A stretch of DNA of 43,952 nucleotides from Bacteroidales bacterium. GTDB taxonomy: Bacteria; Bacteroidota; Bacteroidia; Bacteroidales; WCHB1-69. Position numbers and translations under genes: made by a program. The stretch spans positions 1-43,952 of the forward strand of contig JAKSME010000005.1 in NCBI GenBank assembly GCA_024400785.1, in the 5' to 3' direction. This document shows, one piece after another, positions 37,006-43,276 of this stretch; position 1 is the first letter of the stretch; every line of letters begins with the position of its first letter. The notes under the pieces are model-generated. The model saw nothing but the letters and a program-made list of their open reading frames with translations, did no database searches and was not told the origin of the DNA.

Positions 37006-39954
37006 TCATTGTTCTTGTTCTATTATTGTTTGATAGAGTCTGAATAATTCAGCAACAATTTGAGATTCATTGTTAGAGGATAGAATTGTTGCATTGAAAC
37101 CGTAGGCAGCCATCACGGCATGATCATTTTCCTTATGGGCTTTGCGCAGCTCGGGTGGCATTGTGACATCATCGTACAAATCGGCCAACGAACTTTCCGG
37201 ATATTTTGCCCGCGCATCCAGGATGGCTTGCGCTGTCTGCTCAATTTTAGTCTTCTGGTCTTCCGTCGGTGTAGGCCATGGAAAATTGTTATATACAATG
37301 TCTTTGGAATAGCGATAATCCGATTTCAGTCGGCCGCAAACCACGCGCATCCACCCCCTGTGGACATCGGCAGTCAGAATGCCAAAATGGTAGAGGGTAG
37401 CGTCTGGAATAATCAGATTAGCGTTAGTAGGAATCGTATTTTCATCTAAAAAACCAAGGGGAATGTATCGCCTTTTTTCTGATGATGTACTTGGAATGAC
37501 TATAAATGTTTTAGGATTGTTAGTTTCTCTAAATAGATGAGGTGTGTCTGCTTTTCTACGAGTAGTTGCATCAGTACTATTTAACCTCATCTCTCTAACC
37601 TTTTTAATTCTTCCCATTACTAATGGCATTTGGCGTAACTCGTTGGGCGAAGCATCAACCAACCACAAACAATACCTATTTTTGTTATTTATATATTCAT
37701 CAGCACCAAGCAATCTTTTTATGTATTTTTGTGCAATGGGTTCCTTTTTTATAAAATCGGCATATTCACTTTCTTCAATAATCAAATTGCCACCATCTGT
37801 CGGCTGATTTCCTTTTCTGATTTCGGGCACATCACAAATTGACTTTTTACGACTTTCTATAAACACAGTTGGAGCATCTATTAAATATGGAGATATATTA
37901 TGAGCCATTTCTTGTGTTTCCTTATCAGTGTATAATACTTTCAAACTTGTATTCTCTTCGTGAGAGAAACCAATAATAACGCAGTGGACGTGCGCTTTTA
38001 ATGTTGATTCGCTGTCCCAGCGGAAAGTACGGTAGGCGAAATCAATATGAATGCCAAATTTCTCAAACAAGGGCTTCCAAAGTGCAGCAGTCTGTTCACC
38101 TTGTGTAACAGAATTTGTAGATACTAATGCTACTCTGGTTTTTGTATCTTTGATAACTTGAGATGCCCTCAAATACCAACAACTCACATAATCCAAGCGA
38201 CCAACATTTTTCCAATTCCCACCAAAAACACACTGAATATCATTTTTCTGACTTTCTGTTGTCATTTGATGCCCTACAAACGGCGGATTCCCCATAATAT
38301 AATCGAAGTCCACACGGTACGTTTCTGGTTCTCTCCGCTTGGGATGCAGATTGATTTCGTCGCTGTATAAATCAATATTGTTATATCGTATCGGCGGCTC
38401 GCTCACCGTCAAGGTCGGAGCATCTTGCATAGGATAGACATTGGTTCGCTTCGCAATGATGGCCGTACGCTCTTCAACGATAGGCCATTCCGTCCATGAC
38501 AAGCGTAACGCGTTGCCCTTCTTGATATTGTGATAGGTTTTCAGCGGCAGCATATCCAAATCGAAGTCCACAATGGAGGAAGTCTCCTTCAGCATCTGAC
38601 TCTCGGCAATCCACAATGCGGTGGTTGCGACATCTGCCGCGAAATCGTTGATTTCGATGCCATAGAACTGATGAATGGAGACTTTCACCGGATTGGTTTC
38701 TTCAAAACCCATTTGTACCTGTCCCTTAGTCTGAAGACGGATGGCCTCATTTTCCAAACGGCGCAGCGACAGGTAAGTCTCCGTCAGAAAGTTGCCACTT
38801 CCGCAGGCAGGATCCAGAAATTTCAGTTCAGAGAGTTTCTTCTGAAATTCTGCTGCTTTTTTCGTTTGCAATTTTCCTACTTTCTCGGCTTTTATTTCAT
38901 CAAACTCGCGGCGCAAATCATTAAAGAACAGCGGGTCGATAACTTTATGGATGTTTTCGATAGAGGTATAGTGCATACCGCCCGAACGGCGCGTCACCGG
39001 ATTCAATGTCGATTCGAATACGGCACCGAAAATGGTGGGACTGATTTCGCTCCAGTCGAAATCGTCGGACGCCTTTTCCAAAATCAGCGCGCGCAGTTCG
39101 TCGGTGAAATTCGGAATCTCGACGTTGCAATCCGAAAACAGACCGCCATTCACATACGGGAAGGCCGATAGCGCTTCATCCATATACGGGTCTCGGTCTT
39201 CAACTTTGGTGTCTAAAACTTTAAACAAGTCAATTAGCGCGCGGCGGAAATTACGGGCATCGAATTCCGACATATAGTCGTGAAACATACTGCGTTTCCC
39301 GAAAACGCCCGCATCTTCGGCATACAGACAGAACACCAGACGCACGCAGAGCATATTCAAGCTGTGGAGGGTTTCGGCGCTGGTGGGATCCTTGTACTGC
39401 GGTAGCAGCGCATCATAAATCTTGCCCACCAGGTCGCCCGCTTTTATGCTGACCTCCATTTCCTTTTTCAAATGGGGATTCGCGATGGCGGTTAGGAATG
39501 AAAGACGATAGTACTCTTTGTCAAAATTTTCCAGCAAAATCTCAATGGGCTCGCCATTTGGATTTTCCATATCGTAAACCAAAAACGACTGAAAGTTGCT
39601 CACCACCACCCAGCGCGGACGCAAGGAATAAGGCAGTTCGTTGGCATAGCGCTTGGCCTGCTGAAAAGGCGTCAGTATGGAACCATCGCTCTGCTTGTAG
39701 CCCTTGTGCAAATCCACATCAGAACTTTTCTGCTCAATCAAGACTTTTGTGGCTTCGATGTAGGCATCGATGAAACTCACGTGCGCAAGCTGTACACGCT
39801 TTTCAAACTCGATAAATTTCTGTGGTTCAGCGATTTCAAATACAGTGCGGAGCAACGACATCCAAAACGATTGTGTTTCGCTTTTTTCATCTCCACGATT
39901 TCCCCATTCTATTGCGAATGCCTTGGCAGCAGATTTTTGTTCTTGTGTAGTCAT
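37006..39954 (-). CDS. MmeI-like type IIL restriction-modification enzyme (single-chain)
   Basis: 982 residues carrying cleavage, methylation and target recognition in one chain. The N-terminal nuclease motif is D63-x10-E74-Q-K76 (FIDAYIEATKVLIEQK), followed by FQQAKRYANEL. A helical spacer covers about 150-320. The gamma-class N6-adenine methyltransferase has motif X-like GMHYTS (326-331), motif I DPACGSGNF (381-389) and motif IV N556-PPF. The region from about 620 to 870 should be the target-recognition domain, and the tail ends AELFRLYQTIIEQEQ. The frame is intact with all catalytic motifs, so it is probably active. No separate endonuclease or methyltransferase gene is needed, consistent with its standing alone. 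It lies between identical 27-bp repeats beside a tRNA gene, suggesting acquisition as a module. Confidence 0.9.
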   Translation of the reverse strand: MTTQEQKSAAKAFAIEWGNRGDEKSETQSFWMSLLRTVFEIAEPQKFIEFEKRVQLAHVSFIDAYIEATKVLIEQKSSDVDLHKGYKQSDGSILTPFQQAKRYANELPYSLRPRWVVVSNFQSFLVYDMENPNGEPIEILLENFDKEYYRLSFLTAIANPHLKKEMEVSIKAGDLVGKIYDALLPQYKDPTSAETLHSLNMLCVRLVFCLYAEDAGVFGKRSMFHDYMSEFDARNFRRALIDLFKVLDTKVEDRDPYMDEALSAFPYVNGGLFSDCNVEIPNFTDELRALILEKASDDFDWSEISPTIFGAVFESTLNPVTRRSGGMHYTSIENIHKVIDPLFFNDLRREFDEIKAEKVGKLQTKKAAEFQKKLSELKFLDPACGSGNFLTETYLSLRRLENEAIRLQTKGQVQMGFEETNPVKVSIHQFYGIEINDFAADVATTALWIAESQMLKETSSIVDFDLDMLPLKTYHNIKKGNALRLSWTEWPIVEERTAIIAKRTNVYPMQDAPTLTVSEPPIRYNNIDLYSDEINLHPKRREPETYRVDFDYIMGNPPFVGHQMTTESQKNDIQCVFGGNWKNVGRLDYVSCWYLRASQVIKDTKTRVALVSTNSVTQGEQTAALWKPLFEKFGIHIDFAYRTFRWDSESTLKAHVHCVIIGFSHEENTSLKVLYTDKETQEMAHNISPYLIDAPTVFIESRKKSICDVPEIRKGNQPTDGGNLIIEESEYADFIKKEPIAQKYIKRLLGADEYINNKNRYCLWLVDASPNELRQMPLVMGRIKKVREMRLNSTDATTRRKADTPHLFRETNNPKTFIVIPSTSSEKRRYIPLGFLDENTIPTNANLIIPDATLYHFGILTADVHRGWMRVVCGRLKSDYRYSKDIVYNNFPWPTPTEDQKTKIEQTAQAILDARAKYPESSLADLYDDVTMPPELRKAHKENDHAVMAAYGFNATILSSNNESQIVAELFRLYQTIIEQEQ

Positions 39955-40092: not shown

Positions 40093-40385
40093 AATCATTA
40101 AAGTACGAATAAAATCCTTACAAATTATTGCCTTATCAAACTTCAATGAAAGTGATGGCTGCTATTTCTGAAGGAAATTGGCTTTTTTATTACTTTTAAT
40201 TGTGAAATTTTTGAGTGGCAAAAGTAGTGCTTTTATTTGAATTATTTAAAATGAAATCATTCCATTTTAACAAAATAAGATATGTTTTTTTCGGCATTTA
40301 AAATGAATACTCGAGTCGTTTCGCTTTGTGGCAAAAAAAGAAAATAATCCCCGATTTTCATCGTTATGATTTATTGATAAAATAG

Positions 40386-40393
40386 TAACTTTG
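40386..40393 (+). promoter_or_regulatory. Promoter -7 element of the esterase gene
   Basis: TAACTTTG followed by CCG, 21 nt upstream of ATG 40415. It supports translation from 40415, which encodes the signal peptide. Confidence 0.6.
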
Positions 40394-40414
40394 CCGCTCG
40401 AATTTTTTTACCCT

Positions 40415-42117
40415 ATGAAGTATCTTCATCGCATTTTATCCATTGTCGGAAAGGCCTTTCTGCTGGTTTTTGTCGCTTGCGTTTTGGGATTGTTCGCCAC
40501 AACAGCAACGCTTCTACCGACAGCGATAGGACTGAGGCTGAACTTGCGGCTGCCAACGCCGCAGAGGTGAAAGCCTTTGAACAGGATGAGTCAGAGTTGG
40601 TGAGCCTTCCTGCCAATATCAAACCCCATATTTATTATTATGGGAAAATTGAAAGTCAGGAATATATCCTCATATTCAACGATATAGAAAAGAAGAAGTT
40701 CTCTGGAACCTTTTACAAAATTGGTGAAAATGCAATAGTTTCCCCGGTGAATTTCACAGGAAAAGCGAAACGGGAAAAGTGCCTGTTGGTTGTTAATGGC
40801 AAAAAAACGGTATGGAAAAATTACCGCGCATCGTCCGATGACTATAGTTTTAAAGGAAGTTTTGTAGAAGGAAAAGCAGCCAAAGATTTTTCTTTTTCCA
40901 CCTATATTGAGCCGACTTTCAAAAAAAACACCGACAGTAGTCGTTACCAAGATGAGTATTTCGATGTGGAAGTTATCAATGATGTAAAGTACGGCTCCGC
41001 AGAAGGTTACTGGGTTTCTCGCGAGGAAAATTCTACCAACTATGCCAAAATTATCGCCTCGGGGATTGCGCAAACCCTTTCCACGAAACAATTTGATTTG
41101 CGCATGGATTTGTATCTTCCCAAGAACGACTCGCAGGAAAAGCGTCCGCTGATTATGTTTATTCACGGAGGCGGTTTTTATATCGGGGATAAAAAAGACA
41201 ATCCGATAGTGCTGTGGTGCCGTCATTATGCCAAAATGGGCTATGTCGTTGCGTCCATCAATTACCGTATGGGTTTCAAACCCACCAAAGGTTCCATTGA
41301 GCGTTGCGGATATTGTGCCACGCAGGATGCAGCCGCTGCCATGCGCTATTTGATTCACAACAAGGGGAAGTTCCGCATCGATCCGAATTATCTTTTCGTC
41401 GCGGGCAGCAGTGCGGGCGGTATCACCACGCTGAATCTCGCTTTTATGCGTAATAAAAATCGTCCGGAATCCTCGAAAAAAAGTTTCGGAAATGAAGATC
41501 TCGGTCCCATCGAATCCTCGGGTAACACGTTGAAAGAGACTTATAAAATCCGTTGCATCTGCAATATGTGGGGCGCCGTTCATGATATCTCCATGATCGA
41601 CAATGCCAACATCTCCATCATCTCTTTTCACGGTAATGCCGACCAGGTCGTTCCTTATGGTGAGGAAGTCCCTTTTAAAGATATCAAACTCGGCATCAGC
41701 AAATTGTTTTTCAATAAAATGTTCGGTTCAAATCCCATCCATGCACGAGCTAAAACGCTGGGTTACAGACAGAAACTTTACACCTTCGACGGCTGTGGCC
41801 ATGCTCCCCATGTTGATAAAAACAACCAACCGAACGACAAATTTTACTTTATTCAAGAAAAAACCACTGAATTTTTCTACAAAGAATTTGTTCCCGAAGA
41901 ACCTTCTATAAAGTATAAAGATAATCAAACATTTACAGCTGTTGCTGGCGATTTTGCCCAATGTTATTGGCAAGCCATAGGCGGTTTTATTCTTGAACAA
42001 AATCGAGAAACCGTGCGTGTGGTTTGGATGTCGGACGCAAAAGAAAAAAAATTGGAAATGTCGGGCAGACTGCTAAACGGAGCCGTCGTGAATGCGGTCT
42101 ATGCGCCCGCTAAATAA
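40415..42117 (+). CDS. Secreted alpha/beta-hydrolase (esterase-like) with apparent N-terminal frameshift
   Basis: ATG 40415 encodes a signal peptide (MKYLHRILSIVGKAFLLVFVACVLG, with Cys in a lipobox-like context) but that frame stops at 40569. The enzyme body is in another frame, open from before 40415 but without an ATG; a TTG at 40477 is its first plausible start and gives no signal. One missing base near 40466-40490 would join them. The body has a beta-sandwich-like part (to about residue 200 of the 546 counted from TTG), then an esterase fold: oxyanion FIHGGGF, nucleophile GSSAGG, acid ADQVVPYG and GCGHAPH. About 90 further residues follow. It lies 25 nt before the vWA lipoprotein gene, a probable operon. 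The hydrolase call is good; the substrate is unknown, and the start and integrity are uncertain. Confidence 0.75.
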
Positions 42118-42142: not shown

Positions 42143-43276
42143 ATGGATATGAAAAAGATGCTTTTTGTGATGCTCCTTGCAGTGAGCACATTGTGCCTGT
42201 TGACGGTTTCTTGCAAAAAACCGCAGCCCACACCCGCCAATGAATATGACCGTTACATTACCGAAGATGGTATTTATTTGTCGATTTTTGCTTTCAACAA
42301 TGGCATTGTTGCCAAAATGGACTATACCAAGGTGACGCCCGGCACCTGCAACACCATCAAGGGATGGATACGCAGTTTGAACAGCTCCGACGATGCTACC
42401 GCATTGCTTTATACCGTCGACAGCTCGTTGAACGCTCTCAAACGCGTCAAATTCCCCGACAATCTTTACAGCATCAATCTCGTAAGTTTTACCGATGGTA
42501 TCGATAACTCATCTGTTTGGTTCGCTAACAGCCAGTGGAACAGCAACTACGCTGATCGTAGTGCGTACCAGGTAGCGCTTCGCGACAGGGTCCGCAACCA
42601 ACTTTTCCACGGTCATCGCCTTTCCGCTTACGGCATCGGTGTCCAAAGCGCCTCCATCGATCCGAATGTGTTCCGCGGTACCATCGAGGACCTCTCCAGT
42701 ACCGACGAGAATGCCATCGTTCTTTCTGAGTATTCCACCATCAGCAACGAGTTCGGACAAATCGCCAGCAACATTACCACCTACAACACCATGACTGATG
42801 TCACCTTCCAATTTTCCTGCGGTGGCACCGACCATATTGTATTTGTTTTCGACGGCGCCGCCACGCCCGAACAGTCGAATTGCAAAATCGAAGCCACCCT
42901 CAATTCCAACAACACGCTTTCCAATATCGTGTATACCGGCCTCGTTTCCAATTCTGGCAGCACTATCACCGGCCGACAGGTGAACGGATCCATTTTCTCC
43001 TTCACTTTCAAAAACTTGCGTGATACCAACAATGACGCGGTGGACACCGACCATGTGAAACTTTTCAAAACCTCTCTCGGAATCGGCGGCGCTTACGCAC
43101 AGGATGTCGAGTTCAACCCGATGTCACAAACCCATACCGAAGTGGTAAAGAAAACCGCAGCCATCATCTTGGTACTCGACGTCAGCAGCTCTTTGGGTTC
43201 CAACTTCGGAAGCGTCCAAAATGCGGCTTGCAACTTCGTTGACATTCTCGCCAATCAAAACCAAAGAAAGAAGTAA
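42143..43276 (+). CDS. Lipoprotein with apparently circularly permuted von Willebrand A domain
   Basis: 377 residues. The lipoprotein signal ends LLTVSC (Cys24); ATG 42149 is an alternative start. Residues 43-205 read as a vWA domain that begins at strand 2: YLSIFAFNN, an acidic-Thr motif DDATALLY (Thr86), INLVSFTDGID (Asp118), then LSAYGIGVQ and an ending helix. A beta-rich, Ser/Thr-rich domain fills 215-335. The missing first strand and helix with the metal-site motif appear at the C-terminus: AAIILVLDVSSSLGSNFGSVQNAACNFVDIL, DxSxS at D346, S348, S350. All three metal-site motifs are present, in permuted order. It is probably a periplasmic or surface ligand-binding protein in an operon with the esterase. 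An alternative is two partial vWA domains. Confidence 0.8.
   Translation: MDMKKMLFVMLLAVSTLCLLTVSCKKPQPTPANEYDRYITEDGIYLSIFAFNNGIVAKMDYTKVTPGTCNTIKGWIRSLNSSDDATALLYTVDSSLNALKRVKFPDNLYSINLVSFTDGIDNSSVWFANSQWNSNYADRSAYQVALRDRVRNQLFHGHRLSAYGIGVQSASIDPNVFRGTIEDLSSTDENAIVLSEYSTISNEFGQIASNITTYNTMTDVTFQFSCGGTDHIVFVFDGAATPEQSNCKIEATLNSNNTLSNIVYTGLVSNSGSTITGRQVNGSIFSFTFKNLRDTNNDAVDTDHVKLFKTSLGIGGAYAQDVEFNPMSQTHTEVVKKTAAIILVLDVSSSLGSNFGSVQNAACNFVDILANQNQRKK

Follow-up and report, generated by a model that had tools for sequence, protein, structure and literature searches.

In the window (the whole stretch of DNA analysed here, 43,952 nucleotides), the gene at 42143..43276 (+ strand, including the stop codon) codes for a 377-residue protein that is very probably a lipid-anchored protein of rumen and gut Bacteroidales, in which a module made of a von Willebrand A (vWA) domain and a beta domain shows a circular permutation with respect to its own homologues, with one predicted metal site contributed by both ends of the chain. 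On the whole, we lean towards a broader reading in which this is a natural, conserved and undescribed permutation of the vWA fold that arose once in Bacteroidales and coexists with unpermuted homologues; the vWA/beta pair would have turned into a module that can be plugged in, its neighbouring ends being well placed for a lipid anchor or for fitting into multidomain surface proteins, and the coupling between beta domain and tether would have changed.

The first 23 residues of the protein (42143..42211, +) correspond to a signal peptide with a lipobox-like TVSC at its end, a layout shared by the relatives, and are followed by Cys24 (42212-42214, +), the expected lipid anchor. This lipobox Cys was recognised by eye, and lipidation is predicted; in the relatives, a regular expression that missed several clear cases detected a lipobox Cys in 50 of 79 proteins. 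The residues that follow Cys24, KKPQP, hold no acidic export signal. Comparison with homologues places the relatives' start at the second ATG of the window gene, at 42149.

The first part of the vWA domain, from strand 2 to the last helix, covers residues ~43-214 (42269..42784, +), which superpose on vWA chains and align to positions 146-349 of the ordinary-order template. It harbours the strand 2 motif YLSIFAFNN (45-53), the MIDAS threonine Thr86 (42398..42400, +) and the MIDAS aspartate loop Thr117-Asp118-Gly119 (42491..42499, +). The beta domain (residues ~215-337; 42785..43153, +), delineated from the AlphaFold2 model and profile comparisons, is looped out between the two vWA pieces. The C-terminal ILVLDVSSSLGS segment, after the beta-rich stretch, carries the first MIDAS motif, DVSSS (346-350; 43178..43192, +), within the second part of the vWA domain (residues 338-377; 43154..43273, +), where profile matches and AlphaFold2 locate strand 1, DxSxS and helix 1. 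The chain stops about six residues past the helix that follows DVSSS, as judged from the end of that helix in the AlphaFold2 model. The order along the chain is therefore Thr, Asp, beta domain and DxSxS, as opposed to strand 1/DxSxS, Thr and Asp in ordinary vWA domains, and because it departs from the latter in this feature the domain was filed as a permuted variant. A preliminary description of this DNA had proposed that the chain opens at strand 2, followed by Thr86 and TDG, and that strand 1 and DxSxS come only near the C-terminus (residues 338-370 there, 338-372 here); these positions were all confirmed in the sequence. It had also presented the beta domain as a separate unit between the vWA pieces. 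Its location between them was borne out but its separateness was not, because ordinary-order homologues hold the vWA domain between the two parts of the beta domain, which itself takes part in the rotation.

Thirteen such homologues were matched by the permuted profile over model positions 197-335 first, then 6-210. By eye, they comprise a signal peptide without lipobox, a first beta part, an ordinary vWA domain and two further beta strands. A collinear vWA domain was found by Pfam in the four of them tested, and their profile aligned collinearly with the vWA domains of complement C2 and factor B. These proteins (e.g. L024, L123 and L125; Pfam VWA/VWA_2) share the vWA domain, the beta domain and the full metal site with the permuted proteins, at ~25-35% identity across the matched pieces, but they differ by their beta part 1 - vWA - beta part 2 arrangement, a barrel-like C-terminus and, by eye, the lack of a lipobox. 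The C-terminal sequences of L023-L031 and L123-L127 resemble an outer-membrane barrel by eye, and Pfam names only the vWA domain in these proteins.

Profile-profile comparison of the two groups in native order yielded two crossing alignments, 21-213 to 146-349 and 208-344 to 2-145. Rotation at position 239 turned them into a single alignment of 314 columns (E 3.7e-59), and rotations at 120 or 300 gave split matches. Likewise, a rotation scan of the permuted profile reached a best single-domain score of 165 bits versus 93 in the native order, and the scores rose smoothly to a single maximum at window residue 238-240. At the level of sequence, crossing alignments that become collinear after one rotation are the hallmark of a circular permutation. 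What used to be the ends of the module have been joined within the beta domain, and the module now begins and ends between helix 1 and strand 2 of the vWA domain. The junction loop, which links what are the N- and C-termini of the ordinary-order beta/vWA module, corresponds to residues ~236-247 (42848..42883, +) and includes the best rotation point, 238-240. No tandem-duplication intermediate was found among the matches.

Pfam searches detected no vWA domain in the native window protein. When its vWA pieces were placed in ordinary order, they matched positions 1-106 of the 107 of VWA_2 (E 0.0013), as well as VWA (E 0.0031); the rotated protein scored 19.8 bits for VWA_2 for a cut-off of 27, and its matches stay under the curated cut-offs. 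Rotation also helped for L057, whose native sequence matched VWA from 36 to 168 (E 4.3e-6, 27.5 bits) and VWA_2 from 1 to 37 at its C-terminus, and whose rotated sequence matched VWA from 2 to 167 (E 7.4e-10, 39.7 bits; cut-off 23.8 in both cases). Member-level Pfam matches are weak, with no vWA match at all for two of the five rotated sequences. The expectation that the two halves searched separately would match complementary parts of vWA profiles held: on its own, the N-terminal part of relatives matched Pfam VWA starting at position 28-36 and ending at 167-168, and the C-terminal part, likewise on its own, matched positions 1-42. The C-terminus of the permuted profile (295-332) best matched the start of the factor B and VWF vWA chains, with weak E-values. 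Weak matches to Cys/Met PLP enzymes in Pfam, PDB and NCBIfam, obtained with one family member only and below cut-off, were set aside as chance. The permuted order explains the fragmentary or absent scores with domain libraries, and hence under-annotation in gut and rumen genomes.

The AlphaFold2 model, run on a 53-sequence alignment (model numbering + 23 gives window numbering), was confident (pLDDT 93.3, pTM 0.84), and its order of strands and helices fits a permuted vWA domain plus a beta domain; a single-sequence model (pLDDT 32) was set aside. As anticipated in the preliminary description, the C-terminus is predicted to form a strand (315-323) followed by a helix (326-348, both in model numbering). 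Model residues 18-191 align structurally with solved vWA domains (Z scores up to 11.9, 2.7-3.4 Å), and residues 16-194 superpose on residues 182-421 of Mfa5 (Z 11.2). The structural matches, including those with pilus-tip adhesins and integrin beta I, clearly covered the vWA part only. The model supports a Rossmann-like fold in that part, in which strand 1 is tentatively placed from secondary structure. The vWF domain of Mfa5 spans residues 142-418, with DxSxS at 150-154 (PMC7835359). Since the superposition starts at residue 182, after this motif, the missing strand-1/helix-1 stretch is what the permuted C-terminus supplies. A Foldseek search of the PDB returned nothing below E 0.001, as expected when the search depends on chain order and the query is a permuted chain of two domains.

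Conservation of the metal site was counted over 53 non-redundant permuted modules. No variation was seen at Asp346, Ser350, Thr86, Thr117, Asp118, Gly119 or Ser124, and all 53 have Ser or Thr at position 348. The retention of the five metal-site positions across both chain ends argues that they still act together, and a divalent metal is predicted to bind at D346/S348/S350/T86/D118.

To gauge the spread of the permuted order, 84,980 species genomes were searched with an alignment as the query; 223 relatives were reported, versus none when genome contigs were queried with the single protein, and the best 80 were fetched. Nearly all of these 80 (of 223) are titled as Bacteroidales or Bacteroidia metagenome-assembled genomes, many of them from rumen or gut. 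The permuted module is one contiguous match in 80/80 of this best set, interrupted by the contig end in L035, and L111 harbours two well-separated modules; the permutation is therefore family-wide, which settles the earlier question of whether the order is conserved among homologues. In a family-level search, several genera yielded full-length homologues that share this order. The family is sparse within the order, with any match, permuted or ordinary, in 18/393 genomes, and the only match among 395 genomes searched from across the phylum, apart from the genome of the window, was weak and partial.

The permuted module occurs alone or mid-chain in large proteins. Approximately 50 of 79 chains terminate at most 15 residues past it, and the remainder extend further. 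Its companions in the larger relatives are FISUMP, FGE-sulfatase-like, dockerin, Fn3, Big_2 and laminin-G-like domains, all of which are surface or binding types, as well as SusE/F-like and List-Bact repeat domains. Pfam revealed no further vWA domain in ten multidomain chains with a permuted module, and no complete ordinary vWA domain, which would have spoken against the permutation, was seen beside the module in the homologues examined. L111 (6381-11105, +) is a single protein of 1575 residues that combines its two permuted modules with dockerin-type repeats and two FGE-sulfatase-like matches. In L020 and L021, open frames of more than 2500 codons encode a permuted module with many Fn3-like repeats after it (by eye for L020). 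Another permuted module, L080, comes from a record titled UBP6, possibly of another phylum, yet it is placed among Bacteroidales in the tree; L083, whose record bears just the title 'Bacterium', resembles it at the N-terminus. Horizontal transfer or a binning error is possible for both.

In a tree of 66 modules brought to a common order, one branch separates permuted from ordinary modules (SH-aLRT 100); this is a quick tree with long branches, and the split by itself is no proof of direction. vWA domains in general have the ordinary order, so the permuted one is most likely a derived state that originated once. Two genomes, G829 and G042, hold both forms, in the case of G829 on one 1.1 Mb contig.

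We propose that the ordinary ancestor consisted of the first part of the beta domain, a vWA domain led by strand 1 and DxSxS, the last beta strands and then further sequence. In the permuted form, a short loop within the beta domain would join the old ends, and new ends would have been opened between helix 1 and strand 2. The connections between the domains would all be unchanged, so that one chain should refold to the same Rossmann sheet, with D346, S348 and S350 from the C-terminus and T86 and D118 from the N-terminal part forming a single metal site. In the vWA fold, the turn between helix 1 and strand 2 is on the face opposite the metal site; the new chain ends are thus expected to be adjacent on that face. 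Such adjacent ends may suit direct lipid anchoring or insertion into longer proteins, the beta domain probably being a free pendant.

Most likely, the protein is held by a lipid anchor in the cell envelope or at the surface and binds a ligand in a metal-dependent manner. Its gene neighbours provided no constant partner in the neighbourhoods compared. Directly upstream in the window (40381-42117, +) is a gene for a BD-FAE-type alpha/beta hydrolase (esterase), which is similarly positioned in L033 and L034; an esterase gene of this type is also near the permuted gene in another clade, on the opposite side. It was rejected as a constant partner, because in other genomes it is on different contigs from the permuted gene, and it also turns up where no permuted gene was found. 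The upstream esterase is thus syntenic within the genus and unlinked elsewhere. Further upstream (37006-39954, -), the window encodes an MmeI-type type IIG restriction-modification protein with all MmeI domains present.

We weighed other readings of the unusual order. Bacteroidales type V pili use strand donation, and a terminal strand and helix supplied from far along the chain are what a domain swap would use; the C-terminal strand 1 and helix 1 could then complete the vWA domain of a neighbouring molecule, generating dimers or chains as in donor-strand systems. Monomer prediction cannot separate swapped from unswapped forms. However, the beta domain runs into strand 1, and the last vWA helix into the beta domain, just as in ordinary homologues, so that local folding needs no swap, and the module is found singly and mid-chain in large proteins, which makes swapping improbable. 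It is more improbable still that two unrelated partial vWA pieces, as decayed duplicates, flank the beta domain and share no site. Pfam detects only fragments in the native order, as such a reading would have it, but the pieces are complementary, both sets of metal-site residues are kept in 53/53 modules, and one rotation restores a collinear alignment. As for an artefact of assembly or annotation, the fetched relatives do come from MAG-type or uncultured-organism records; nonetheless, the order recurs in many independent assemblies from different studies, each time in a single open frame and with differing flanks, and one genome carries both orders, leaving a next to negligible probability for this explanation.

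A different alternative accepts the permutation as described and concerns only the role of the protein, which would be periplasmic assembly or chaperoning rather than binding of surface ligands. Some vWA proteins work with ATPases or in assembly, and in ordinary homologues the module precedes barrel-like sequence (by eye). The companion domains of the permuted relatives, in contrast, are typical of exposed or secreted proteins, and we regard a periplasmic role as possible but rather doubtful. The circular permutation itself is common to both views of function.

Few adhesion folds have been studied as much as the vWA domain, whose chain ends are believed to relay ligand binding to the tether. 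Here, the permutation moved these ends and kept the metal-site residues, and the existence of unmoved homologues allows a matched comparison; the permuted domain tests how far MIDAS needs the usual tether geometry. In agreement with the preliminary description, which knew of no family with this order, we found no description of a permuted vWA domain in the open-licence literature searched, although this is weak evidence of absence.

Insertion of a vWA domain in a beta-sandwich is found in integrin beta I with its hybrid domain and in the pilus adhesins RrgA, GBS104 and SpaC. These superpose on the window protein at Z 7-12, and their own vWA order is ordinary. Mfa5, at the tip of the type V pilus of Porphyromonas gingivalis (PDB 6to1), similarly ties a MIDAS vWA domain to a beta-sandwich, the former sitting between beta-domain strands (PMC7835359), and matches the window protein at Z 11.2 over 152 residues. 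It differs by its ordinary order, an ARM insertion and an isopeptide bond, and no sequence match with it was detected here. The cpRAS and YRG GTPases offer a natural case of a circularly permuted conserved domain, which was identified from the order of its motifs (PMC2430557); they differ from the window protein in being GTPases, and the vWA domain attached to them is not described as permuted (PMC2430557). By analogy with Mfa5, the pilus adhesins and integrin beta, the window module may thus work as a vWA/MIDAS domain coupled to a beta-sandwich.
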